Shown here one piece after another: positions 13,121 through 25,665 of a stretch of 64,000 nucleotides of DNA (its first letter is position 1; each line of letters opens with the position of its first letter). The notes beneath the pieces were generated by a model. The model worked only from the letters and a program-made list of their open reading frames with translations. It was not told the origin of the DNA and did not search any database. The stretch is from Nesterenkonia sp. LB17 (lineage in GTDB: Bacteria > Actinomycetota > Actinomycetes > Actinomycetales > Micrococcaceae), in the NCBI RefSeq assembly GCF_022565915.1, contig NZ_JAJOYX010000002.1:566293-630292 (forward strand). The letters are read 5' to 3'. The translations under genes and the position numbers were made by a program.

Positions 13121-14584
13121 TCAGTAGGCCCCGGCCCCGCCGAAGACCGCCCGCGCGGTGCGCAGCACGATCTGAATGTCTCCCAGCAGCGTCCAGTTCT
13201 CAACGTAGTAGAGGTCCAGCCTCACGCTCTCCTCCCAGGAGAGGTCCGAGCGACCGGCCACCTGCCACAGCCCGGTGATCCCGGGCTTGACCAGCAGCCG
13301 CCGGTGCGTGTGGTCGTCGTAGGCCTCCACCTCACGGGGCAGCGGCGGGCGCGGCCCCACCACTGACATCTCCCCGCGCAGCACGTTGTAGAACTGCGGC
13401 AGCTCATCCAGGCTCAGCCGGCGCAGCACTGCACCGATCCGGGTGACCCGAGGATCCCTGCGCATCTTGAAGAGCACCCCGTTGCCTTCCGAACGCTCCT
13501 CCAGCAGCGAGAGATGTTCTTCGGCGTCGACCACCATGGAGCGGAACTTGAGCATCGAGAACCGTGAGTGATTGATCCCGACGCGCTCCTGCCGGAAGAG
13601 CACCGGTCCTGGGCTGTCCAGCCGGACCCAGATCGCGATGGTGATCAGCAGCGGGGCAAGCATCAGCAGCGCCAGCGCGGAGAAGACGACGTCGAAGGTG
13701 CGCTTGGTCAGCCGCGCCGTCCCGGTCAGTCGTGGGTAGGCCACGTGCAGCAGGGGGACTCCTGCGACCATGTTGGAAGTGATCCGCGAGCCGGCAGTCT
13801 CTGTGATGGAGGGCACCACGACGAGGTTCACATCCAGCGCGTCCAGCGCCCACCCCAGCTCCCGCACCCCCTGGGCGGAGAACAGGTCCGTCTCCGTCAG
13901 CAGCACCAGATCAGCGGCGCTGCGGGTGACGACGTCCACGATCTGCGCGACGACGCGCTCCCGGGTCTCGACGTCAGCAACGGTGTGATCGCCCTGGACC
14001 TCGTGGATCGCCGTGACAGTAGTGCCGGTGACCGTCCTGGATCCACGCACTGCCGAGACGACATGACGGACCTTTCGAGGATTTCCCACCACCACGGCAC
14101 GATGGGTCCACTTTCCTCGACGCCACTGGGCGTGGAGCATCCGGCGCCACAGCCAACGAGCCATCAGCACGGCGATCGTCCCGATCGGCAGCGACCAGAT
14201 GAGGTGTTCGCGGGCGACGGCCAGGTCGAGAGCGACCAGCGCGGTGAACAACAGACCGAAGCTCGTGAGCGTGGCGACCAGCACTCTCCGGTATTCCGTG
14301 ACGTCAGCCCCGATATGCCGCCAGTCCCGAGACCGGCTCACGCTCAGCGCGGCGATCCAGAGCACGCCGAGCACAGCGGTGGTGACCACCGGTGCTTCCG
14401 GCAGCGCCAACAGGTGGACCACGGTCAGGACACCGGTGATGACCGCGAGATCCGTGACCACCAGCCGCCTGGCGTAGCCTCGCTGCCAGCGGCGCGCCGA
14501 GGCGGGGCCCGCCGGTGAGCCCATCCAATCGAGTCTCTGCTCGGCGCTGGCGATGTTCACTGCAGAGGAGGGCTGGCTGGTCAT
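13121..14584 (-). CDS. Polyprenyl-phosphate sugar-1-phosphate transferase (exopolysaccharide priming)
   Basis: A 487-residue protein of the exopolysaccharide polyprenyl-glycosylphosphotransferase family. Four or five hydrophobic segments (about 40-150) are followed by a CoA-binding-like cytoplasmic domain with VVVGNPRKV. A further hydrophobic anchor at about 295-320 (KRTFDVVFSALALL) leads into the catalytic domain, with KFRSM, DELPQFYNVLRGEMSVVGPRPPLP and PGITGLWQV. It would transfer a sugar phosphate to undecaprenyl phosphate at the membrane to begin a repeat unit. Its ATG overlaps the stop of the upstream tupA-like gene (ATGA), so it is the last gene of the leftward polysaccharide operon. 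Confidence 0.9.
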   Translation of the reverse strand: MTSQPSSAVNIASAEQRLDWMGSPAGPASARRWQRGYARRLVVTDLAVITGVLTVVHLLALPEAPVVTTAVLGVLWIAALSVSRSRDWRHIGADVTEYRRVLVATLTSFGLLFTALVALDLAVAREHLIWSLPIGTIAVLMARWLWRRMLHAQWRRGKWTHRAVVVGNPRKVRHVVSAVRGSRTVTGTTVTAIHEVQGDHTVADVETRERVVAQIVDVVTRSAADLVLLTETDLFSAQGVRELGWALDALDVNLVVVPSITETAGSRITSNMVAGVPLLHVAYPRLTGTARLTKRTFDVVFSALALLMLAPLLITIAIWVRLDSPGPVLFRQERVGINHSRFSMLKFRSMVVDAEEHLSLLEERSEGNGVLFKMRRDPRVTRIGAVLRRLSLDELPQFYNVLRGEMSVVGPRPPLPREVEAYDDHTHRRLLVKPGITGLWQVAGRSDLSWEESVRLDLYYVENWTLLGDIQIVLRTARAVFGGAGAY

Positions 14585-15594
14585 GGAACAGCCCCCTCTG
14601 TCACTGCCCGGACGGGAAGGGGGCCGAGAACGACAAGGTCGGCAGGATCGGTGGCACTGTGGAAGACGACGGTGTGGTCCAGATCAACCGTGCCACCTGA
14701 CGAGACCGCATTGGCCGCGTTGATGACGCGCGGCAGTTCTGCCGGGTACTCCTTGACGGTGTCGAATCCAGCCCACCAGGCACCCAGCTGGAGATCCACC
14801 GCGTCCGGGCTGAAGGGATCCATTCCGCCGGAGGGGTAGGGAGTGAGCTCGCCGAACCACACTTCGCCATCAAGGCTGTAGAGGTCCACACGCATGAAGT
14901 CGTAGCCAGCACCGAGAGTCTCCGCAGCGCGGACCATCTCGCCGAAGTTCTTCGGTGGCGGAACAGCCGCACCACGTGGAGCCTCGTTGGTCATGTCGAG
15001 CGGTTCCCAGTCGCGGTTGTAAAATACCTCCGTGAAGTCGTCGGTGAAACGTCCGACGTCGGTGTGCAGTATCTTCAGCTGCCCGTGAAAGACATAGAAC
15101 TTGTAGTCGATCAGCGGCGCACCGTCACCGATGCGCGGTTCGATGATGAGTTCCCGCCGTGCCTGTCCGTAGGCCCACTCCCCCACCGCGATCCGGTCAT
15201 ACGGGCGCAGCCATCCCTTGGTCACCCGGCGCAGGTCCGCCAGGGTCGTGCTGCGATCCCCGAAGTACACGGCCTTGCATTGATGGTTCGGCTTGATCAC
15301 CCAGTGGTCAGGCAGGGTCGAGAGATCGAGCTGGTTCAGATCGGTGCCGTGCCACAGCGTCTCTGGCACGTTGATCCAGGGTGCTCGCTCGGCGGCGCAG
15401 TCCTTCATCGCTCGCTTGTCGCAGGTCCAGGCGATCTCCGGACTGCGGTCCTGAAGCATCCGCTGGGTCAGGAACTCGGTGAACCGCGAGGGTTTCTTGA
15501 AGTTCCCCCAGCGTCCGAATCGGCGGCGGTACATGATCTGCCGCAGTATGGGATCTGGAATGGGGGTCAGCAGTCGCCGGACTGAGGGGTGCAT
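14581..15594 (-). CDS. TupA-like ATP-grasp ligase, copy 1
   Basis: A 337-residue protein of the ATP-grasp family named after TupA (teichuronopeptide synthesis in alkaliphilic bacilli). Recognisable features are DHWVIKPNH (nucleotide lysine), RELIIEPRI, and the acidic metal-binding end GELTPYPSGGMDPF. It should form an amide or peptide bond on a sugar acid or amino sugar in the cytoplasm. It is closely related to the next two genes but has a longer, unrelated C-terminal tail of about 45 residues after VKEYPAELP. The start follows AAAGG by eight bases. A remnant of the flippase 3' end lies just upstream. The exact substrate is unknown. Confidence 0.8.
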   Translation of the reverse strand: MHPSVRRLLTPIPDPILRQIMYRRRFGRWGNFKKPSRFTEFLTQRMLQDRSPEIAWTCDKRAMKDCAAERAPWINVPETLWHGTDLNQLDLSTLPDHWVIKPNHQCKAVYFGDRSTTLADLRRVTKGWLRPYDRIAVGEWAYGQARRELIIEPRIGDGAPLIDYKFYVFHGQLKILHTDVGRFTDDFTEVFYNRDWEPLDMTNEAPRGAAVPPPKNFGEMVRAAETLGAGYDFMRVDLYSLDGEVWFGELTPYPSGGMDPFSPDAVDLQLGAWWAGFDTVKEYPAELPRVINAANAVSSGGTVDLDHTVVFHSATDPADLVVLGPLPVRAVTEGAVP

Positions 15595-15599
15595 GGTGA

Positions 15600-15656
15600 T
15601 TACCTTTCAAGGGGAGCGGCCCGTGTGGCAGGCATCGAAGACGGTGCAGGTTCGGT
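15600..15656 (-). repeat. Duplicated 3' end of the flippase gene, upstream of tupA-like copy 1
   Basis: Read on the minus strand, this stretch encodes TEPAPSSMPATRAAPLER and a TAA, nearly the same as the last codons of the flippase gene (TDPAPAPMPAVQAAPLER, TAA at 17599-17601). It is a footprint of tandem duplication; it now supplies the spacer and ribosome-binding site of the following ligase gene. Confidence 0.75.
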
Positions 15657-15685
15657 GGGTGCAGCTGCCGGGGTGGTCTGGGTGA

Positions 15686-16582
15686 TCATGGGAGGGATGG
15701 CGCCTCCTCGGTCAGGCCTCGCAGCTCTTCCGGGTACTCCTTGAGGGTGTCGAATCCGGCCCACCAGGCGCCCAGCTGCAGATCCACCGACTCCGGAGTG
15801 AAGAGATCCATTCCGCCGGAGGGGTAGGGAGTCAGCTCCCCGAACCACAGCTCCCCGTCGAGGTTGTAGAGGTCCACGCGCATGAAGTCGTAGCCAGCAC
15901 CGAGCGTCTCCGCAGCGCGTATCATGTCCTCGAAGTTCTTCGGGCGGGAAGCGACCGCCCCTCGTGGGAGTTCACAGGTGATGTCCAGGGGCTCCCAGTC
16001 GCGGTCGTAGAACACTTCCTCGAAGGGACCCGAGAAGCTGTCCAGGTCGGTGTGCAGGATGCGCGCTCGCCCATGGAAGACGAAGATCTTGAAGTCCGTG
16101 AGCGGAGCTCCGTCCCCGATGCGCGGTTCGATGATGAGTTCCCGCCGTGCCTGTCCGTAGGCCCACTCCCCCACCGCGATCCGGTCATAGGGAAGCAGCC
16201 ATCCCTTGGTCACCCGGCGCAGGTCCGCCAGGGTCGTGCTGCGATCCCCCATATAGACGGCTTTGCTTCGATGGTTCGGCTTGATCACCCAGTGATCGGG
16301 CAGGGTCGAGAGATCCAGCTGGTTCAGATCGGTGCCGTGCCACAGCGTCTCTGGCACGTTGATCCATGGTGCTCGTTCGGCGGCATAGTCCTTCATCGCT
16401 CGCTTGTCGCAGGTCCAGGCGATCTCCGGACTGCGGTCCTGAAGCATCCGCTGCGTCAGGAACTCGGTGAACCGCGAAGGTCTCTTGAAGTTCCCCCACC
16501 GTCCGAACTTGCGGCGGTACATGATCTGCCGCAGAACCGGGTCAGGGATGGGGGTCAGCAGCCTGCGAAAAGAGGGGTGCAT
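15686..16582 (-). CDS. TupA-like ATP-grasp ligase, copy 2
   Basis: A 298-residue paralogue of the flanking ligases. The first 160 and the last 75 residues are almost identical to copy 3, including the end EELRGLTEEAPSLP, and the first 160 to copy 1. Residues about 160-222 differ strongly (FHGRARILHTDLDSFSGPF in this copy). The ATP-grasp landmarks DHWVIKPNH, RELIIEPRI and GELTPYPSGGMDLF are kept, so the protein looks functional. The variable block lies between the nucleotide-binding part and the metal-binding end, where substrate recognition is expected (inference). AAAGG lies eight bases before the ATG. Confidence 0.8.
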   Translation of the reverse strand: MHPSFRRLLTPIPDPVLRQIMYRRKFGRWGNFKRPSRFTEFLTQRMLQDRSPEIAWTCDKRAMKDYAAERAPWINVPETLWHGTDLNQLDLSTLPDHWVIKPNHRSKAVYMGDRSTTLADLRRVTKGWLLPYDRIAVGEWAYGQARRELIIEPRIGDGAPLTDFKIFVFHGRARILHTDLDSFSGPFEEVFYDRDWEPLDITCELPRGAVASRPKNFEDMIRAAETLGAGYDFMRVDLYNLDGELWFGELTPYPSGGMDLFTPESVDLQLGAWWAGFDTLKEYPEELRGLTEEAPSLP

Positions 16583-16587
16583 GGTGA

Positions 16588-16644
16588 TTGCCTTTCTGGG
16601 GAGCGGCCTGCACGGCAGGCATCGGTGCTGGTGCGGGGTCGGTG
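16588..16644 (-). repeat. Duplicated 3' end of the flippase gene, upstream of tupA-like copy 2
   Basis: On the minus strand it reads TDPAPAPMPAVQAAP, identical to the flippase tail, then loses frame a few codons before the original stop through a small deletion. With 15600-15656 it shows that the duplicated unit ran from the flippase tail through one ligase gene. Confidence 0.75.
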
Positions 16645-16696
16645 AGTGGTGGACAGATTCATCTGACTCAGATGCCTGCCGGGGCGGTCTGGGTGA

Positions 16697-17593
16697 TCAT
16701 GGGAGAGATGGCGCCTCCTCGGTCAGGCCTCGCAGCTCTTCCGGGTACTCCTTGAGGGTGTCGAATCCAGCCCACCAGGCGCCCAGCTGCAGATCCACCG
16801 ACTCCGGAGTGAAGAGATCCATTCCGCCGGAGGGGTAGGGGGTCAGCTCCCCGAACCACACTTCGCCGTCGATGGTGGACAGATCCACGCGCATGAAGTC
16901 GTAGCCAGCACCGAGCGTCTCCGCCGCACGCACCATCTCGTCGAACTTCTCCGGCCGTGGCTCTACAGCTCCCCGAGGTCCGCCATTGGTGATGTCCAGG
17001 GGCTCCCAGTCGCGGTTGTAGAACACCTCCGCGAAATTGTTCCTGAAGCGTCCCAAGTCGGTGTGCAGGATCTGGAAGCGGCCGTGGAAGACGAAGATGT
17101 TGAGTTCCCTCAGCGGAGCTCCATCCCCGATCCTGGGCTCGATGATGAGCTCACGCCGCGCCTGTCCGTAGGCCCACTCCCCCACCGCGATCCGGTCATA
17201 CGGGCGCAGCCATCCCTTGGTCACCCGGCGCAGGTCCGCCAGGGTCGTGCTGCGATCCCCCATATAGACGGCTTTGCTTCGATGGTTCGGCTTGATCACC
17301 CAGTGATCGGGCAGCGTCGAGAGATCGAGCTCGTTCAGATCGGTGCCGTGCCACAGCGTCTCTGGCACGTTGATCCATGGTGCTCGCTCGGCGGCGTACT
17401 CCTTCATCGCACGCTTGTCGCAGGTCCAGGCGATCTCCGGACTGCGGTCCTGAAGCATCCGCTGGGTCAGGAACTCGGTGAACCGCGAGGGCTTCTTGAA
17501 GTTCCCCCACCGTCCGAACCTGCGGCGGTACATGATCTGCCGCAGAACGGGATCAGGGATGGGGGTCAGCAGCCTGCGCAAGGAGGAGTGCAT
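16697..17593 (-). CDS. TupA-like ATP-grasp ligase, copy 3
   Basis: A 298-residue ligase, the first of the three to be transcribed and in the position expected of the parent gene, directly behind the intact flippase. It keeps DHWVIKPNH, RELIIEPRI and GELTPYPSGGMDLF. Its variable block reads FHGRFQILHTDLGRFRNNF and differs from both sister copies. Two start codons are possible; ATG at 17593 is preferred because GAGAGG lies eight bases before it, as in the other copies, whereas the ATG at 17599 is only two bases from it. Probable role as for its paralogues: ATP-dependent amide bond formation on a cell-wall polysaccharide precursor. Confidence 0.8.
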   Translation of the reverse strand: MHSSLRRLLTPIPDPVLRQIMYRRRFGRWGNFKKPSRFTEFLTQRMLQDRSPEIAWTCDKRAMKEYAAERAPWINVPETLWHGTDLNELDLSTLPDHWVIKPNHRSKAVYMGDRSTTLADLRRVTKGWLRPYDRIAVGEWAYGQARRELIIEPRIGDGAPLRELNIFVFHGRFQILHTDLGRFRNNFAEVFYNRDWEPLDITNGGPRGAVEPRPEKFDEMVRAAETLGAGYDFMRVDLSTIDGEVWFGELTPYPSGGMDLFTPESVDLQLGAWWAGFDTLKEYPEELRGLTEEAPSLP

Positions 17594-17598
17594 GGTCA

Positions 17599-19101
17599 TT
17601 ACCTCTCTAGGGGAGCTGCCTGCACGGCAGGCATCGGTGCTGGTGCAGGGTCGGTGGCTGGTCGGGCAGCGGATGCTTCCGTGCGCGGGTGGCGGACAAG
17701 CCTGGAGGCCATGAGAAGTCCCGGGATGACCTGGGCGAGAGTCACTCCCAGGGCCATCGAGACTCCCGGAGCTGCGGGGCCCAGCCCCAGCTGTATCCCG
17801 AACAAGGTGCCCGGCACGACCAGGATGAGCAGCACCAGTGACATCGCCGCCTGGCGCCAGAATCCACGGCGGTCGGTGAAGAGATTGGTCTGGGTCAGAT
17901 GTGCGGCCTGCGCGACGAGGGCCGCTCCGAGACCGAGGACGACGCCCCAGGAAGGTACGAGAGCGCCCCCGGTGACGAGACCTGCCACGGGCCGGGCGAA
18001 GATGATGAAGCCCAGAGCAGCGCAGGCGCCGAGCCCGGTGAGCAACAGATTCGCTCGTCGCCAGAGCTGTGGACTCGGGTCCACGGCGAAGCGCGGCCAG
18101 AGCACCGTCGCGGCCATATAGAGGACCGAGTAGATCGGCATGTAGAGCTGCAGGGCGATGGCGTATTCGCTCAGGTCCAGGGCTGTGGCTGCACTGGCCA
18201 GGACCAGCCTGCCGTGCTGCTCGGAGAGGACCATCCCGGCGGTGGCCAGCAGCACTGGGAGCCCGCCAAGCAGGATGAGTCTGATCGACGTCCCCTCGGC
18301 GATCTCCTCACGGCGCTCGTCGTGTCCAGCAGGCACGGGGCAGCCGTCCACGGGGTTCTCGTTCGCGGATCGCTCCGGTATGAGGATCGTACGGATGCCG
18401 ATGCGCGGGTGCAGGAAGGCGAGGTAGCCGCAGACGCCGAGGAAGCCGAGCGTGCTCAGCGGCAGCCCGAGCGCCAGCCAGGCGACGGGCACTCCCAGCT
18501 GTCCGAGGGCGTAGACGACCAGCACGTTTCCGACCGAGGGGAGCAGACCGAGCAGGACGAGAACATCCGAACGGTCTCGACCCACCAGCACTCGCTCCGC
18601 GATCCCCAGCGGAAGGCTCAGGAAGAAGACCCCCAATACCAGACTCATGACCAGGTCGACCTGTGGGGCGAGTGTTTCAGGAACTTCAAAGACTCTGGAC
18701 CAGAATCCATACACTCCGCTCAGCGCCGCGGCCGTGGCACCGAGAAGTCCCACCGCGAGCAGCAGCAGGGCGGTGCGTCTGATGAGGGTGCGGACCTCCT
18801 CTGCGGCCCGTGCCGAACCATCAACCCGGGCCACCGCTCGAGCCACGGCCGCTCCCATGCCGAGATCGGCGAACGGGAGAGCAAGCTGCAGCTGGGCGAC
18901 CAGGGTGATGAATCCGAACGCAAGCACCCCGGCATAGTGCACGGTGAGTCCCGCCGTGGTCAGTGCACAGAGCGCGCTGATCGGCAGCACGGCGATGCGC
19001 AGACCAGCGGTTCGCGCGAACATCGCGGTCCAGCTTCGGTGCGGCCCCGGTCTCGGCGGCCCCGGGTTCACCGATGCGGCGTGTACTGTCTCTTCAGTCA
19101 T
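17599..19101 (-). CDS. Polysaccharide flippase (Wzx/MATE-like)
   Basis: About 500 residues with roughly 12-14 hydrophobic segments and an N-terminal block (MFARTAGLRIAVLPISALCAL) typical of polysaccharide transporters. It would turn lipid-linked repeat units from the cytoplasmic to the outer face of the membrane. The start chosen is ATG at 19101, overlapping the glycosyltransferase stop by eight bases; a longer frame to 19191 lies inside that gene and is unlikely. A charged loop near the middle (about 235-265, ERSANENPVDGCPVPAGHDE) is unusual. Its last 18 codons are repeated twice downstream, before two of the ligase genes. Confidence 0.85.
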   Translation of the reverse strand: MTEETVHAASVNPGPPRPGPHRSWTAMFARTAGLRIAVLPISALCALTTAGLTVHYAGVLAFGFITLVAQLQLALPFADLGMGAAVARAVARVDGSARAAEEVRTLIRRTALLLLAVGLLGATAAALSGVYGFWSRVFEVPETLAPQVDLVMSLVLGVFFLSLPLGIAERVLVGRDRSDVLVLLGLLPSVGNVLVVYALGQLGVPVAWLALGLPLSTLGFLGVCGYLAFLHPRIGIRTILIPERSANENPVDGCPVPAGHDERREEIAEGTSIRLILLGGLPVLLATAGMVLSEQHGRLVLASAATALDLSEYAIALQLYMPIYSVLYMAATVLWPRFAVDPSPQLWRRANLLLTGLGACAALGFIIFARPVAGLVTGGALVPSWGVVLGLGAALVAQAAHLTQTNLFTDRRGFWRQAAMSLVLLILVVPGTLFGIQLGLGPAAPGVSMALGVTLAQVIPGLLMASRLVRHPRTEASAARPATDPAPAPMPAVQAAPLER

Positions 19102-20050
19102 GCCCACCGACTTGCAGCATCCCGGACATGGCGACCACGATGGCCGCCGCGTGTGGGCGAGCCCGCAGGCACTTCGCCAGCTGTCGGACACCCTGGTTCC
19201 AGGCTCCGGAGGCGAAGGCGTCCCGCGCCACGACCGAGGCCTGGAAGTCGGCGCGGGAGCGTTCCGAGATCTCGGTGCCTATCGAGTCGAGCCAGCGTGA
19301 GCTGGCCTGCCAGTCCGCGCTGCGCGAGATGGAGCCGACGCTGGCCTGGTGCACTCGCACCAGCACCTCGGGCAGCATCGTCAGCGTCTTGCCGGCCGCT
19401 TCGAGCCTTGCGAGCCAGTCCCAGTCCTGGTGCCGGGTCAGCTCGTCGTTCCAGGGGACCTCCAGCGCGGTGGACCTGCTGCACAGCAGCGAGGAGGTCT
19501 GCATGAAGGTTCGCCGCAGCCGCAGCGTGGAGCGGTCGAGGATGTAGTCCACCACCGCCTCCGCGTCCTCGCCCTCTGCCTGGTAGAGCCGCTCGGGGAC
19601 CACTCGACTCGACGATCCCACGAGCAGCGAGCGCGAGCTCACCACGGTGTTGTCGTCCACCACCGCCATCTGCAGGGCGGCCTTCTCAGAGACCCACTCG
19701 TCGTCGTCGTCGAGGAAGGCCACATGCGTCGTGCTGGCGCTGCGCACTCCGAGGTTGCGGGCACCGGCTCCCCCGAGCCCTCCTGGGGTGAGGACCATGA
19801 TGTGCGGCAGCCCGGTGAGCAGCTTCTCGACGCTGGCGGCGTTCTCGGGCCGGTCGAGGACCACCAGGACTGTGGTTTCCCAGGTCTGGCGCAGCACCGA
19901 CCGGACGGCCCGCTTGAGCGAGCGGCGCCCTACGGTAGGGATGATCGCGGTCAGGGACCGAGCGTGCTGAGGTTCGGTGTACTCGTAGAGCTCAGCGGTG
20001 AACGGCCCGCGCCTCGCGGCGTCGATCCGGGAGGGGGTGTCGATGCTCAT
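19094..20050 (-). CDS. GT2-family glycosyltransferase
   Basis: A 318-residue GT-A-fold transferase: LTAIIPTVGRRSLKRAVRSV at the nucleotide-binding end, GGAGARNLGV, and the metal-binding acidic run FLDDDDEW. A C-terminal region with RHQDWDWLARLE matches the acceptor side of the family. It starts at ATG 20050 with GGAGG five bases upstream; this ATG overlaps the stop of the previous gene (ATGA). It would add one sugar to the lipid-linked repeat unit; donor and linkage cannot be told. Confidence 0.85.
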   Translation of the reverse strand: MSIDTPSRIDAARRGPFTAELYEYTEPQHARSLTAIIPTVGRRSLKRAVRSVLRQTWETTVLVVLDRPENAASVEKLLTGLPHIMVLTPGGLGGAGARNLGVRSASTTHVAFLDDDDEWVSEKAALQMAVVDDNTVVSSRSLLVGSSSRVVPERLYQAEGEDAEAVVDYILDRSTLRLRRTFMQTSSLLCSRSTALEVPWNDELTRHQDWDWLARLEAAGKTLTMLPEVLVRVHQASVGSISRSADWQASSRWLDSIGTEISERSRADFQASVVARDAFASGAWNQGVRQLAKCLRARPHAAAIVVAMSGMLQVGGHD

Positions 20051-20793
20051 CACGCCCTCCACATCAGCAGGGCGGCGAGCTTCATGGGTTCCAGGAGATA
20101 GCGTCCGGCGAGTCGACGCGGGTCTGTGGCCAGTCGCCACGCCCACTCCAGGCCCATCGCTCCGAGCCGGCGTGGGGCGAGCGACTGGGTGCCTCCCAGC
20201 TGGTCCAGTGCGCCTCCCACCGTGGCGATCACCGGGACGTCCACGCGCGAGGCCAGCTCATCGGCGATGCGCTCCTGCAGCGGCATGCCCATGCCGATCA
20301 GCAGAACCTGCGGATCGTGATCCCGAATGCTGGCGGCTACCTCTTCGATGTTCTCCGCTCGCCACGGGTCACCGGGAATGGCCTGCCAGTCCACCTCGCC
20401 GTCCAGTGAGCTCAGATGCTTCAGCACTGCGTCGCTGGCGGCCGGCGTGCCGCCGAGCAGAGACACGCGATGGATGCCCTCCAGGTCCGCCAGGCCCTCC
20501 ACCCAGTCGGTGGATCCGATGCGGTGCTCGGTGCGAAGCGGCACCCGGAGCCCGAGCCGCATCAGGGCCAGCAGCGGCATGCCGTCGACGACGACGGCCC
20601 CGGCCCGGTCATAGAAGTCGCGGAACTCCGGCAGGCTGTACCAGAGATAGACGGAGTGAAGATTGTGGCCGGCGACGAGCATCCGACGGTGTTCGCGGGC
20701 GGCGTCGCGGATATGGTCCAGAAGTTCTTCTCTGCGCAGCGGAGTGACATCGACGTTGAGCAGCGGAACATTCAGGGACGGGATGACAGTCAT
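20050..20793 (-). CDS. WecG/TagA/CpsF-family (GT26) glycosyltransferase
   Basis: About 247 residues. Landmarks are the N-terminal Asn/His region VAGHNLHSVYLW, GAVVVDGMPLLAL, GGTPAASDAVLKHL, the signature LLIGMGMPLQERI and VIATVGGALDQLGGT. In WecG and TagA this fold transfers an N-acetylmannosamine-type sugar to a lipid-linked first sugar. The start is ATG 20793, supported by GAGGAG seven bases upstream; the frame extends to 20928 but that part lacks conservation. It is the second gene after the Wzz-kinase and overlaps the next glycosyltransferase. Confidence 0.85.
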   Translation of the reverse strand: MTVIPSLNVPLLNVDVTPLRREELLDHIRDAAREHRRMLVAGHNLHSVYLWYSLPEFRDFYDRAGAVVVDGMPLLALMRLGLRVPLRTEHRIGSTDWVEGLADLEGIHRVSLLGGTPAASDAVLKHLSSLDGEVDWQAIPGDPWRAENIEEVAASIRDHDPQVLLIGMGMPLQERIADELASRVDVPVIATVGGALDQLGGTQSLAPRRLGAMGLEWAWRLATDPRRLAGRYLLEPMKLAALLMWRA

Positions 20794-20937
20794 CAGAGAT
20801 CTCCTCGTGGATGAATCGATGGTGCATGTGACGGTGCGCTGATGCGGTGCTGTATCACCTGTCTGGAGCGCAGGAGCAGGGCTCACCGCCGGGAAGGCGG
20901 TGGCGGGATCTGGGGTCGGAGAAGCCATGAACGCAGA

Positions 20938-22512
20938 TCACGTCCTGTCCTGCGGGAGGGTGAAGATGTGCGCACTGCCCGGGGCAGCCTCGGAGAGCGC
21001 CAGCGTGCCGTCGGGGAGCCGACGACGCCGCGCCGAGGAGAGCCCGGAGGCCCGGGCGCTCAGGCCCTGTCCGGAGTCGCCGGGATCTCCGTCACGTCCA
21101 CGTCCGCCACCGCGACGTCGCCGGCGTGACCCAGGGGGTCGACGGTCCTGGAGGCTGTCAGGTCCACGCGGGGGAACACCGGTGAACACCACTCCGACGA
21201 GTCGGGCGCGGGCTCGGGTCAGCAGTTCGAGCCCGGCGCTCAGCTGCGCCCGCGAGACCTCTCCGTAGCGGGCCACCACGATGACGCCGGTCGTGATCTG
21301 GGCAAGCAGAGCGGCAGCGGACTGGCTCAGCAGCGCAGGAGTATCGATGATGGTGACGTCGTAGGTCTCGGCGCAGCCTTCAAGCAGGGTGGCCATGGCA
21401 TCGAGGGCGCAGGCCTCCAGGCCGTGGTCCGCTCCCCGGCCGGCGGGCAGGATGTCGAGACCCGGTTCCGCATCGGTGATGATCACATCTTCGAAATAGG
21501 CGCTCCCGGACAGCACCTCGTTCAGTCCAGCAGGGGTGAGGTCGGTCAGCTGGCCCCCGCCCGAGGTGCTGGTGCGAAACCAGTGCACGATGTCGGGGTT
21601 CGCGAAATCCGCTCCGATCAGCAGGGTGCGGCGGCCACCTTCCACCAGGGATCGGGCCAGGTTCACCGCAACGGTGGTGCGACCCTCCCCCTCCACCGAA
21701 CTGGTGATCACATAGGAGCTCGGTGAGTCGAGGTACTTGCCGAACATCAGCCGCATGCGCATCTCCCGGAAGGACGCCACCGCCTCCACGGACCTCGGGT
21801 CGGTTCGATCCCCCTGAGTCGTCACCGTCGGCGCGCCCCTGGTGACGCCCAGCAGCGGCGCGGCTGTGAGGTCCTTGAGGTCGCGGGGAGTGCGCACCGA
21901 CGTGTCGCGGGCTTCGCGCAGGAAGGCCAGTCCGAGACCGAGGAGGATCCCGACCGCTAGGCCTGTTCCCAGGACGAGCTCCAGCCGCGGTCCCTGTGGA
22001 TGGGCAGACGCCACGGCGTCCTGCACCACTGAAAGTTCGACGAGGACTGCACCGTCTGAGCCAGGATCCTCGCCTGGACCTTCGATCTCGTTCACCAGGG
22101 TCTGCAGGCTGGTCACCGTGGAGTTGGCGATGTCTGCCGCTGCCTGAGCCTCGTCTGCGGTCGCGGTGATCTCCAGCAGCGAGGTGCCGCGGGGCACCTC
22201 TGCGTCGATGCTCTCGGCGAGCTGTGAGCTCGACATCGGCAGTCGCAGATCCTCGACCACGGGATCCAGCACCGCCGGGGTCGTGACCAGGTCTGCGTAG
22301 CTCTTGACCCGTTGTCCCACAACGGTGCTGCCCCGCTGGAGCTCCTCGAGACTCTCACCGGTCGCGGCAGAGACATAGATCTTGGTCGTGGACTCGTAGG
22401 TGACCGGCTGCAAGACGTAGATGGCGGCCGCGAAGAGCACGGCGATCACCGGAGTGAGCAGAATCGACGCCCAACGACGGCGGCAGATGCGCACAAAATT
22501 GTGCAAGGCCAT
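20938..22512 (-). CDS. Wzz-type chain-length regulator fused to a degenerate BY-kinase domain
   Basis: About 524 residues. A Wzz domain occupies about 1-200 with membrane segments at 16-36 and 178-197. A cytoplasmic ParA/BY-kinase-like domain follows (about 240-450) with Walker B VTIIDTPALL. The P-loop reads SSVEGEGRTT (271-280), so the invariant lysine is arginine, and Walker A' reads LLIGAD instead of LLIDAD. No tyrosine cluster ends the protein; the tail is Arg/Gly/Ser-rich. It is probably inactive as an autokinase but may still set chain length. Start ATG 22512; a TTG at 22521 is a weaker choice. It is the first gene of the leftward polysaccharide operon. Confidence 0.85.
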   Translation of the reverse strand: MALHNFVRICRRRWASILLTPVIAVLFAAAIYVLQPVTYESTTKIYVSAATGESLEELQRGSTVVGQRVKSYADLVTTPAVLDPVVEDLRLPMSSSQLAESIDAEVPRGTSLLEITATADEAQAAADIANSTVTSLQTLVNEIEGPGEDPGSDGAVLVELSVVQDAVASAHPQGPRLELVLGTGLAVGILLGLGLAFLREARDTSVRTPRDLKDLTAAPLLGVTRGAPTVTTQGDRTDPRSVEAVASFREMRMRLMFGKYLDSPSSYVITSSVEGEGRTTVAVNLARSLVEGGRRTLLIGADFANPDIVHWFRTSTSGGGQLTDLTPAGLNEVLSGSAYFEDVIITDAEPGLDILPAGRGADHGLEACALDAMATLLEGCAETYDVTIIDTPALLSQSAAALLAQITTGVIVVARYGEVSRAQLSAGLELLTRARARLVGVVFTGVPPRGPDSLQDRRPPGSRRRRRGGGRGRDGDPGDSGQGLSARASGLSSARRRRLPDGTLALSEAAPGSAHIFTLPQDRT

Positions 22513-22636
22513 AAGTGACAACTTCCCGGTGCAAGGTCAGTGGTCACCGTGCAGACGCCCCTGGAACGGAGGGGCGCCTGTACGGTGCGTTGACCACGCT
22601 AGGCCGGGAGGTGGGTCCTGCGTCACAGTGATGGGC

Positions 22637-22722: not shown

Positions 22723-25665
22723 TCAGGCGCTGCGCAGGCCGCTTTCGGCCTCATCCTGGAGCATCCGACGCAGGGCGTGGCGAGATTCCAGCGCGAGCTT
22801 CCCCAGGGCGTTCGCCACGTGGTACTCCACGGTGCGCACCGAGAGGACGAGCTCCTCGGCCACGTCCTTGTTTGACAGGCCTTGACCCACCATCAGGGCG
22901 ATCTCCCGTTCACGGTTTGTCAGCCCGGTCAGCGCAAACCGGGCCTTGGAACTGAGCCCCTCGGGCAGATCGATCATCCGGGCGCGCTCAGTGGTCCCCG
23001 CGACTCCCGCCGGCTTGCGCAGCGTCTGGAAGACCTCATCGGCCTGATGGAAGAGTCCATCCGCGCCGCATCCCTGGAACATCGAACCGGCCCAGAGCAC
23101 CCATTCCGACGTCTGCTCGACCTTTTCCTGCAGAGAATCCCTGCCGAGCGCCACACAGTGCCCGAGGTCCAGTGCGAGGAGGCCGCGGTAGATGCTGAGC
23201 GCACCGCCATCACCGGGCACATGGGTCGATTTCAGCGCAGGAATCGCCGAGATCGTGGACATCGCGGCACTGAGGTGTTCATAGGCTGTCGCGTGCTTGC
23301 CGGCCCCCACGGCTGCCAGTCCGCGCAGATGCCGCAGCACATACTCGCGCTGAGCGGTGGAGGAGTGCTCGTCTGCACGGATCGTGCTGATCAGCGCCGG
23401 CAGCGCCTGTGCCCTGCCGCTGTGGAACAGTGACCTTCCCAGCAGCACCGCCGGCGTGAGTGCGCGGGACCAGATGTTGAGCTCCGCCTGCAGCCCGAGA
23501 ACGCTGCTGACCACTCGCTCGTGGTCCTGTGCCGACGTGGCCCCCCAGGCCTCGACGAACCCTCGTCCCGCGCGGCCGAGACTGGTGTCGGTCATTCGGC
23601 GGACATGCGCGCGCAGGTCGAAGGGCCAGTTCTGCGCCGCGCGCTGCCCGCGCGCTGCCGGCACGAGGTGAGCGGCGTTGAAGGCCACCGGTGCGACATT
23701 TTCTTCACTGATGTCCAGCACCTCGGCTGCGGCCGATTCCGCAAAGTCCTGCGCCTCGGACCACAGCCCGGCCTCGAAGAGCAGGTAGGTGATGTGTATC
23801 TCGGCCTGAGCCAGCGCGCGACGATTGCGGCCGGGCCAGTTCTCGATCGCGGCGATCAGGTCGGCATACGCCTCAGTGAGACGACCTGCGGTGCGCAGCA
23901 GCGCGCCTCGCGCCACCAGCAGCACCATCTGCGCGGATTCCGTGCCAGGAACACGTCTGACCTCATCGAGAAGCGTCTCGACCTCCCGGGAGAACGACTC
24001 GGGCTGGGCGGCGTCCATGTCTTCGAGCAGCCGCCAGAGCTGCAGACTGACCCTCAGCCCGCGGGTCTCGGCCAGGAGCTGTTCGGGCGTCGCCATCCGG
24101 GTGCGCACGGCCGGATCGTCGGCTTCTAGCTTCGCTTCGAGCAGCTGCAGCACCTCGACGGTGCGCTCAGCCACCTGGAAGAGGTGCCAGTAGGATCCGC
24201 GAAGGCCAGCGGTGCGCGACGCGGTCAGGACCGTGTCGGCATAGCACAGGAGGGCCTGGGGAGATGCCTCGGCCAGCCCTTCGCCGCCGGCCAGGAAGCC
24301 CAGTGTGCTCTCCAGATCGCCACGGATCAGGCTCTCGCGCGCGAGGATCCCGCGTCGCAGCACCGGGTGGACGTTGTCATGACTGTGCGCCCAGCTGATC
24401 GTCGAGTCGATGTCGACCCTGGTGCCTGCGCGCATCGCGGCGAAGGAGAGCACCTCCAGCGTGGCGCCGGATCGGTCCACCTCGAAGGCGAGCCGGCTCA
24501 GCTCAAGAGTCTCGGCATTGTCGCCGGCGCGGCTGGCGGCGCGCGCGGCATCGGTGAGAGCCGCGACGATCGCGGGGCGATCTCCCACCGAGGGATCCAG
24601 CAGCGCGGCTTCGGCCTGGTGCCGGGCCGCAGAGGTGCCCGCGTGGACGCGGGCAAGGCGCATGTGCAGGTCCACGCGCTGTTCGCGCGGAAGATCGACG
24701 ACCAGGCACTGCTGGAAGATTCTGTGCTGCAGGCAGAATCGGCCGGACTTCGCCGACTCCTGGACGAGGCTGGAATTGCGGAGCGCCTCGACGTCGACGG
24801 ATGCGACACCGAGCAGTTCCCGAATCTCGTGGTCCGCGAGCGGATAGCGGGACAGGGCCAGCAGCGCCAGCACCTGCTGCACATCGGCAGGAGCCTCCTC
24901 GAAGATCTGCCGGATGCGGAGCCGCTGAGACTCCGCAGGACCCGCGCCCCGGCCAAGTCCCTCCAGCGCACGGTCCAGCGCCGCGGCGGTGATCGCCTCC
25001 TCCGGGGCGGTGAGCGTGTCGATGACATAGCTCACAAACGACGGAAAACCGCCGGTGGCGTCATGGACCCGCGCCGCAACATTGGCGCTGATCGGGAGAC
25101 CCGTCTCCCGCTGGAGCAGCTCACGGACCTCTGCTCGACTGAAGGGCTCCAGCTCGATGCGCAGCGCCTCACCGGCTGTCGCGGTGTAGCGCTCCAGAGG
25201 CAGCAGGTCGGGACGCGTGGTGGGGCGGCTGGTCACCAGCGAGAGCATCGGGACGTCCTCGACCTCACGGATCGTCTGGTAGATGACGGCCGCAGAGAGC
25301 GAGTCCATCCACTGCAGGTCCTCGATGACCAGCGCGACGGGTTCGCGGATCCCATCTGTCTGCTCCTGGACCAGCGCCGCGAGTCCCTCGCCGTCGGTGG
25401 GCGCGCGGGAGCGCTGCGGCTTGTGGAGCAGGCGCACAGCGGCATACCCCGGCGTCGCCCGATCGGCGACGTCGAGGTATACATTCGCTCGCGACCAACC
25501 CGAGAGTCGAGCCACGGCCTCATTGAGCAAGGACGTCTTGCCTATACCTGGAGGGCCTTCGATCAGAATGAATCGCGGGTCGGAGGAGGAATGAACGGCC
25601 TCCGCCGCCGCCGCGATGAGTTCCAGCTCTGATTCCCGGCCCAGAAACCTGTTCAATCGTGACAT
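22723..25665 (-). CDS. Large LuxR-family ATPase regulator (LAL/MalT-like)
   Basis: A 980-residue STAND-type regulator. The N terminus has an AAA/NTPase domain with Walker A GPPGIGKT (37-44) and Walker B LVIEDLQW. A long helical, alanine-rich middle (about 350-880) resembles TPR-like sensor repeats. The last 66 residues are a LuxR helix-turn-helix: LTNREREIALMVGQGLSNKD and the recognition helix VRTVEYHVANALGKL. The ATG at 25665 follows AAGGGAG. It lies directly upstream of, and on the same strand as, the polysaccharide operon, so it probably controls it; ligand unknown. It is an actinobacterial large-ATP-binding LuxR regulator by architecture. Confidence 0.85.
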   Translation of the reverse strand: MSRLNRFLGRESELELIAAAAEAVHSSSDPRFILIEGPPGIGKTSLLNEAVARLSGWSRANVYLDVADRATPGYAAVRLLHKPQRSRAPTDGEGLAALVQEQTDGIREPVALVIEDLQWMDSLSAAVIYQTIREVEDVPMLSLVTSRPTTRPDLLPLERYTATAGEALRIELEPFSRAEVRELLQRETGLPISANVAARVHDATGGFPSFVSYVIDTLTAPEEAITAAALDRALEGLGRGAGPAESQRLRIRQIFEEAPADVQQVLALLALSRYPLADHEIRELLGVASVDVEALRNSSLVQESAKSGRFCLQHRIFQQCLVVDLPREQRVDLHMRLARVHAGTSAARHQAEAALLDPSVGDRPAIVAALTDAARAASRAGDNAETLELSRLAFEVDRSGATLEVLSFAAMRAGTRVDIDSTISWAHSHDNVHPVLRRGILARESLIRGDLESTLGFLAGGEGLAEASPQALLCYADTVLTASRTAGLRGSYWHLFQVAERTVEVLQLLEAKLEADDPAVRTRMATPEQLLAETRGLRVSLQLWRLLEDMDAAQPESFSREVETLLDEVRRVPGTESAQMVLLVARGALLRTAGRLTEAYADLIAAIENWPGRNRRALAQAEIHITYLLFEAGLWSEAQDFAESAAAEVLDISEENVAPVAFNAAHLVPAARGQRAAQNWPFDLRAHVRRMTDTSLGRAGRGFVEAWGATSAQDHERVVSSVLGLQAELNIWSRALTPAVLLGRSLFHSGRAQALPALISTIRADEHSSTAQREYVLRHLRGLAAVGAGKHATAYEHLSAAMSTISAIPALKSTHVPGDGGALSIYRGLLALDLGHCVALGRDSLQEKVEQTSEWVLWAGSMFQGCGADGLFHQADEVFQTLRKPAGVAGTTERARMIDLPEGLSSKARFALTGLTNREREIALMVGQGLSNKDVAEELVLSVRTVEYHVANALGKLALESRHALRRMLQDEAESGLRSA

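Follow-up and report, generated by a model that had tools for sequence, protein, structure and literature searches.

Three tandem TupA-like ATP-grasp ligase genes of a Nesterenkonia diverge mainly in one central segment

TupA of Bacillus halodurans (lentus) C-125 gives its name to the PF14305 family of TupA-like ATP-grasp ligases, few of which, to our knowledge, have worked-out substrates. TupA proper is associated with teichuronopeptide synthesis, whose product is a polyglucuronate-polyglutamate wall polymer. The teichuronopeptide of strain C-125 is described as an acidic wall polymer of an alkaliphile (PMC4332470). Closer to a defined reaction, the C-terminal TupA-like ATP-grasp domain of Cj1438 from Campylobacter jejuni is reported to use ATP to amidate glucuronic acid at its C6 carboxylate (PMC11800379), with serinol-P or ethanolamine-P as amine donors (PMC11800379, PMC13276843), and the C-terminal domain of HS19.11 is likewise reported as an ATP-dependent ligase (PMC13276843). 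For the MysD ATP-grasp ligases, an omega-loop segment of 26 residues, and within it two residues, has been reported to govern product choice, and swaps of this loop alter the product (PMC11983340). Finally, operons with several linked ATP-grasp ligases are described as often performing successive ligations with distinct moieties (PMC4431377). Here we analyse a 64,000-nucleotide stretch of DNA from Nesterenkonia sp. LB17 (the window), part of a genome of 2.82 Mb, in which three TupA-like genes, called C, B and A in order of transcription, stand in tandem within an operon-like row of glycan genes.

What distinguishes the three copies? All three proteins score above the curated PF14305 cut-off (Table 1), and, as a first-pass annotation of this DNA had proposed, they differ mainly in a central block. 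For C/B, C/A and B/A, amino acid identity is 96%, 94% and 94% over residues 5-158, 62%, 61% and 59% over the block (residues 161-219) and 92%, 86% and 86% over residues 221-285; the description of both flanks as nearly identical thus suits residues 5-158, but is too strong for residues 223-285 of copy A (86%). In a clustering test with a 59-codon window and 10,000 shuffles, the windows richest in amino acid differences were 161-219, 160-218 and 161-219 in the three pairs (p=0.0001 each), which rules out evenly spread divergence, the pattern named in advance as speaking against the proposal. Third-position differences cluster too, in windows 165-223, 152-210 and 155-213 (p=0.0001 each). For comparison we used the named matches of the window, N. 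sandarakina (sand, G020; 84%), N. aurantiaca (aura, G004; 77%) and N. sp. E16_10 (E16, G023; 77%), whose first and last tupA-like copies by transcription order carry the suffixes 1 and 2. The control ortholog pair C/sand1 shows no clustering (amino acids p=0.74, third positions p=0.61), A/sand2 is borderline (0.09 and 0.06), and the paralogs sand1/sand2 again cluster (0.0002 and 0.023). A divergent block as a general habit of tandem TupA genes was rejected: four other tandem pairs (L113-L116), hand-picked from the PF14305 match lists and not all close neighbours, diverge over the greater part of their length, with two dips in L113.

The block is not only more divergent in protein. Among codons for the same amino acid, synonymous differences number 12/36, 15/35 and 13/34 in the block versus 26/196, 39/191 and 33/191 in the flanks (Fisher p=0.0058, 0.0084 and 0.0098 for the three window pairs), and since synonymous changes also concentrate there, the block appears older than the flanks. 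Synonymous divergence (dS) among the window paralogs is 0.19-0.30 in the N flank versus 0.73-1.55 in the block, and is even along the gene for C/sand1 (0.57, 0.67, 0.52). Third-position identity among the paralogs is 81-86% in the N flanks and 47-57% in the blocks, and between the window and N. sandarakina it is 64-77% in six other operon and regulator genes. By this measure the flanks appear to postdate the separation of the species, and the blocks seem to go back at least that far. Positive selection as an average over the block is not seen, the ratio of nonsynonymous to synonymous divergence (dN/dS) being below 1 in 14 of 14 pairs.

The block and the N flank also tell different histories in trees of 14 sequences, where p values of the approximately unbiased (AU) test are uncorrected for the number of tests. 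In the block tree C joins sand1 at a support of 100/99, and two alternatives are rejected, a clade of the window copies alone (AU p=0.0023 for DNA and 0.00028 for protein) and a clade of the sand copies alone (p=3.8e-5 and 0.00046, respectively). The N-flank DNA tree groups the window copies at 78/80; a C+sand1 grouping is rejected there at p=0.035 and an A+sand2 grouping at p=0.013, and in the N-flank protein tree C+sand1 is again rejected (p=0.047). Because these trees conflict, either the flanks were homogenised, with the block spared, or the blocks were exchanged. A Sawyer-type run test over all sites is significant for each window pair (C/B p=0.0010, C/A p=0.0006, B/A p=0.028).

The block aligns, in an hhalign profile alignment, to the D-Ala-D-Ala ligase (Ddl) stretch FYDYTAKY, and a first, low-confidence AlphaFold model returned matches to ATP-grasp folds. 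Together with the MysD precedent, these observations lend indirect support to the different substrate pockets that had been proposed for the three enzymes; we infer that the block sets substrate choice and, by analogy with the Cj1438 domain and from PF14305 membership, that C, B and A make amide bonds. In a sequence search for a solved relative, the one match (E=0.016) was judged spurious, and in a search for viral relatives none of 41 pattern matches was confirmed. We favour, as the somewhat more probable explanation, that the three genes encode decorating amide ligases with different substrate segments, whose scaffold has been kept alike by gene conversion while an older block was spared.

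Several results weigh against this explanation. When the run test is restricted to silent sites (96 codons), none of 10 pairs is significant; with the short C flank, every grouping tested stays above 0.05 (lowest p=0.059 DNA, 0.063 protein); A+sand2 remains acceptable in the N-flank protein tree (p=0.36), and the A+sand2 grouping in the block is weak (44/77 DNA, 66/78 protein). In N. aurantiaca and in E16_10 the two copies diverge from end to end, which confines homogenisation to the line of the window and N. sandarakina rather than making it general. Amino acid differences, though not third-position differences (p=0.29), also cluster between the orthologs aura2 and E16_2 (p=0.0015), whose proteins are 81% identical in the blocks versus 97% in the N flanks. 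On the structural side, hhalign with a narrower profile gave a weak match (probability 1.8%, P=0.027), and both AlphaFold models are poor (mean predicted local distance difference test scores of 44.4 and 49.9), probably due to only 9 close sequences as input. The earlier suggestion of gene conversion in the flanks thus draws on the discordant trees, the younger flank synonymous divergence and the duplicated spacers described below, and is weakened by the silent-site runs, the C flank and the history of B.

For B, indeed, a different course of events has to be considered. In both inter-copy spacers the 3' end of the flippase-like gene is repeated, together with a sequence resembling a ribosome-binding site (by eye), and this repeat marks the duplication unit; the C-terminal end of B with its preceding spacer is almost the same as the end of C with the end of the flippase-like gene. 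As the B unit is thus nearly that of C outside the block, yet differs so strongly within it, recent duplication followed by block replacement is for B as likely as conversion. Extended to the array, block exchange would make the copies recent duplicates whose blocks were supplanted through recombination with divergent alleles, the donors being other strains or a resident copy since lost. The block of B is nearest to copy 2 of N. aurantiaca (72%) and of E16_10 (69%), in a weak grouping (46/0 DNA, 66/74 protein), and sand1 and E16_2, one pair among 28 tested, share an identical codon run at 249-262 (p=0.0004), which hints at exchange between Nesterenkonia lineages. The block third positions of C/sand1, however, are 67% identical, on par with the other operon genes, and the C-terminal tail of A, longer than those of C and B, can be aligned with the tail of sand2; both fit resident old copies, and we regard general block exchange as possible but unlikely.

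Alternatively, C and/or B could be regulators or inactive partners of A that are no longer ligases. The commonly conserved block residues D163, K/R165, R182 and P212 (A numbering) are all kept in A, whereas C and B each lack two: C carries E in place of D163 and N in place of K165 (E-L-N), where 16/18 relatives have D-x-(K/R), the other exception being sand1; in B, S replaces both R182 (R in 17/18) and P212 (P in 15/18). Nevertheless, C, B and A all retain the 20 positions that are invariant across 18 aligned proteins, among them K60, K101, E139, E152, R235, D237 and E249, in line with the first-pass statement that the nucleotide and metal landmarks are kept; and the form of C recurs in N. sandarakina copy 1, under purifying selection. 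A loss of ligase function is therefore improbable. Least credible is that the block is a loosely constrained, fast-drifting stretch and the copies merely redundant dosage, as the amino acid clustering in aura2/E16_2 might suggest, since synonymous sites are also older in the block, its dN/dS for C/sand1 is 0.14, the block proteins of aura1 and E16_1 are identical, and the family entropy, computed from 13 of 18 alignment rows, does not mark it as a generally fast region (1.68 versus 1.62 in the N part, though 1.31 in the C part).

The favoured explanation, conversion of the scaffold around a spared block, suggests the following scenario. C, B and A would be soluble ligases of the TupA-like ATP-grasp type; they would attach decorations to a lipid-linked surface glycan through ATP-dependent amide bonds, the acceptor most likely being the carboxylate of a uronic acid. 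Tandem duplication of a unit reaching from the flippase-like 3' end through tupA would have produced the additional copies before the split between the window species and N. sandarakina, as seen for C and less strongly for A. Recombination between neighbouring copies may since have held the scaffold (residues 1-160 and ~221-285) uniform; the 59-residue block aligned to Ddl retained separate, older identities under purifying selection. The outcome would be three ligases with common machinery for ATP and glycan, distinguished by the amine or by the acceptor they use, and they would work either one after another or at alternative sites. The window genome is probably able to make uronates, as it holds a UDP-ManNAc dehydrogenase and a WecB epimerase above curated cut-offs and a UDP-glucose-dehydrogenase-like gene. 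A specific partnership of the UDP-ManNAc dehydrogenase with tupA was rejected: close relatives (at least 63%) occur in genomes with and without tupA, some match is found in 29/30 genomes, and a close relative is missing from G010 and G025, so that the enzyme stands for supply rather than linkage.

The three genes lie on the minus strand in a row that begins with a LuxR/AAA regulator and continues through Wzz, a WecG/TagA-type and a GT2 glycosyltransferase and a flippase-like protein to C, B, A and the initiating phosphotransferase; initiating phosphotransferase and Wzz-type protein are both features of Wzx/Wzy-type operons. In a profile search the flippase-like protein had no Pfam or family match above cut-off. 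A second ATG of C, at 17593, is the start homologous to those of B and A and the one taken in the first-pass annotation. At another site the genome carries a fourth PF14305 gene. Sister operons keep the order WecG, GT2, flippase-like gene, tupA (if present) and phosphotransferase; Wzz is found on the far side of the phosphotransferase in G001 and G029 and is unmatched in G013 and G025, and the regulator adjoins the operon in some sister genomes, not all. Some 65-76 kb from the tupA genes (L074 793-11862), the starts of an SMC-like protein and a wecB-like gene each occur twice, beside two genes that we take to be acyltransferase-like, which suggests a duplicated segment.

Table 1. Features of the window and of corresponding sites in sister operons (L, sister loci; ORF, open reading frame)
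Feature	Position	Strand	Remark
Polyprenyl glycosylphosphotransferase (initiating enzyme)	13121..14584	-	PF02397 4e-70; TIGR03025 412.5 bits, above cut-off
tupA-like gene A (last copy)	14581..15594	-	PF14305 104.5 bits, cut-off 25
Divergent block of A	14938..15114	-	D163, K165, R182, P212 all retained
B-A spacer	15595..15685	-	more degenerate copy of flippase-like gene 3' end (by eye)
tupA-like gene B (middle copy)	15686..16582	-	PF14305 105.7 bits, cut-off 25
Divergent block of B	15926..16102	-	S at R182 and P212
C-B spacer	16583..16696	-	flippase-like gene 3'-end copy and ribosome-binding-site-like sequence (by eye)
tupA-like gene C (first copy, adjoins flippase-like gene)	16697..17599	-	PF14305 98.8 bits, cut-off 25
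Divergent block of C (A numbering 161-219)	16937..17113	-	groups with N. sandarakina copy 1, 100/99
Membrane protein, putatively flippase-like by position	17599..19101	-	11 hydrophobic segments by hydropathy
GT2 glycosyltransferase	19094..20050 (probable start; ORF to 20146)	-	PF00535 2.7e-11
WecG/TagA/CpsF-type glycosyltransferase	20050..20793 (probable start; ORF to 20928)	-	PF03808 6.9e-31
Wzz chain-length protein with kinase-like ATPase part	20938..22521	-	PF02706, PF13614
LuxR-type regulator with AAA domain	22723..25665	-	PF13191, PF00196; adjoins operon here and in close sister genomes
Mini-ORFs at tupA site of tupA-less operons	L096 6560-6760; L097 9340-9480; L098 9320-9460; L099 9800-9980
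Wzy-like gene	L038:14271-15539; L096:9917-11173; L097:4881-6137		missing at window ~20793-20938

How far does this arrangement extend within the genus? The WecG protein of the window is matched in 16 of 30 Nesterenkonia genomes, 14 of which hold the operon, G016 and G002 being arranged differently. There are no tupA copies in G026, G012, G009 and G024, one in G019, G013, G001, G029 and G010, two in G020, G004 and G023, and three in the window genome; in G025 tupA is broken, with pieces in different frames (L043 9728-10604). Zero-copy operons have, at the tupA site, a short ORF of a few dozen codons (by eye), which starts with GTGAA after a similar ribosome-binding-site-like sequence, ends overlapping the phosphotransferase start and is possibly the scar of a lost tupA. 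As four genomes retain the operon without tupA, a role in decoration fits. A Wzy-like gene occurs in 8/30 genomes, all within the 14 operon holders, namely 4/4 zero-copy and 4/5 single-copy genomes; in a genome-wide search it was absent from 4/4 multi-copy genomes, G013 and G025. In G019, G010 and the zero-copy operons this membrane gene has Wzz on one side and the WecG-type gene on the other; one member of its family has a Wzy_C match below cut-off and another has none. The window genome has no match to it at E<=0.001, and none within the window is convincing; another Wzy_C gene lies at C1:50697. Of the earlier idea that the ligases decorate one polysaccharide, decoration fits, whereas a polymer is more doubtful, as the multi-copy operons lack the Wzy-like gene. 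The association of multiple copies with the absence of this gene (Fisher p=0.015) is not independent evidence, because in a tree of 13 operons the four multi-copy operons form one clade (100/99), beside G019 with one copy and the Wzy-like gene; Wzy-like loss and tupA duplication may have been one event. PF14305 is found in 25/30 Nesterenkonia versus 21/365 other genomes sampled from the same family (Fisher p=3e-22, kinship ignored).

More speculatively, and with more doubt than conviction, a Nesterenkonia clade may have swapped its Wzy-like polymerase for a growing ligase set, in which the spared blocks of the omega-loop region would serve as specificity cassettes on a common scaffold; rather than being polymerised as before, a short glycan unit would then carry different amide-linked groups in a defined series, as a peptide-like decoration.

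What is real here is an unusual evolutionary pattern within a known enzyme family, not a new kind of enzyme. It amounts to a natural experiment on the substrate-choosing part of an ATP-grasp ligase, with close paralogs that differ mainly in one segment and with the copies of a sister species as controls, and the block differences make the specificity of this segment directly testable in TupA-like ligases. The range from 0 to 3 copies at one operon site further allows one ancestral glycan to be compared with and without the ligases.

A literature search for ATP-grasp ligases combined with gene conversion returned nothing, and neither 'TupA', 'teichuron' nor 'ATP-grasp' occurs in a word search of a comparative paper on Nesterenkonia (PMC8875376). 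With TupA of B. halodurans and its teichuronopeptide the window ligases share the family name, a likeness by description only. Like Cj1438 and HS19.11, to the former of which they are again likened by description, they are TupA-like ATP-grasp proteins (PF14305) in a glycan-operon setting; unlike those domains, which are fused to a glycosyltransferase, they are stand-alone tandem copies. MysD, in whose report the available text makes no mention of tandem copies or concerted evolution (PMC11983340), belongs to another ligase group with another product. The linked ligases surveyed elsewhere, as described there, belong to different families (PMC4431377), whereas the three of the window are close paralogs.

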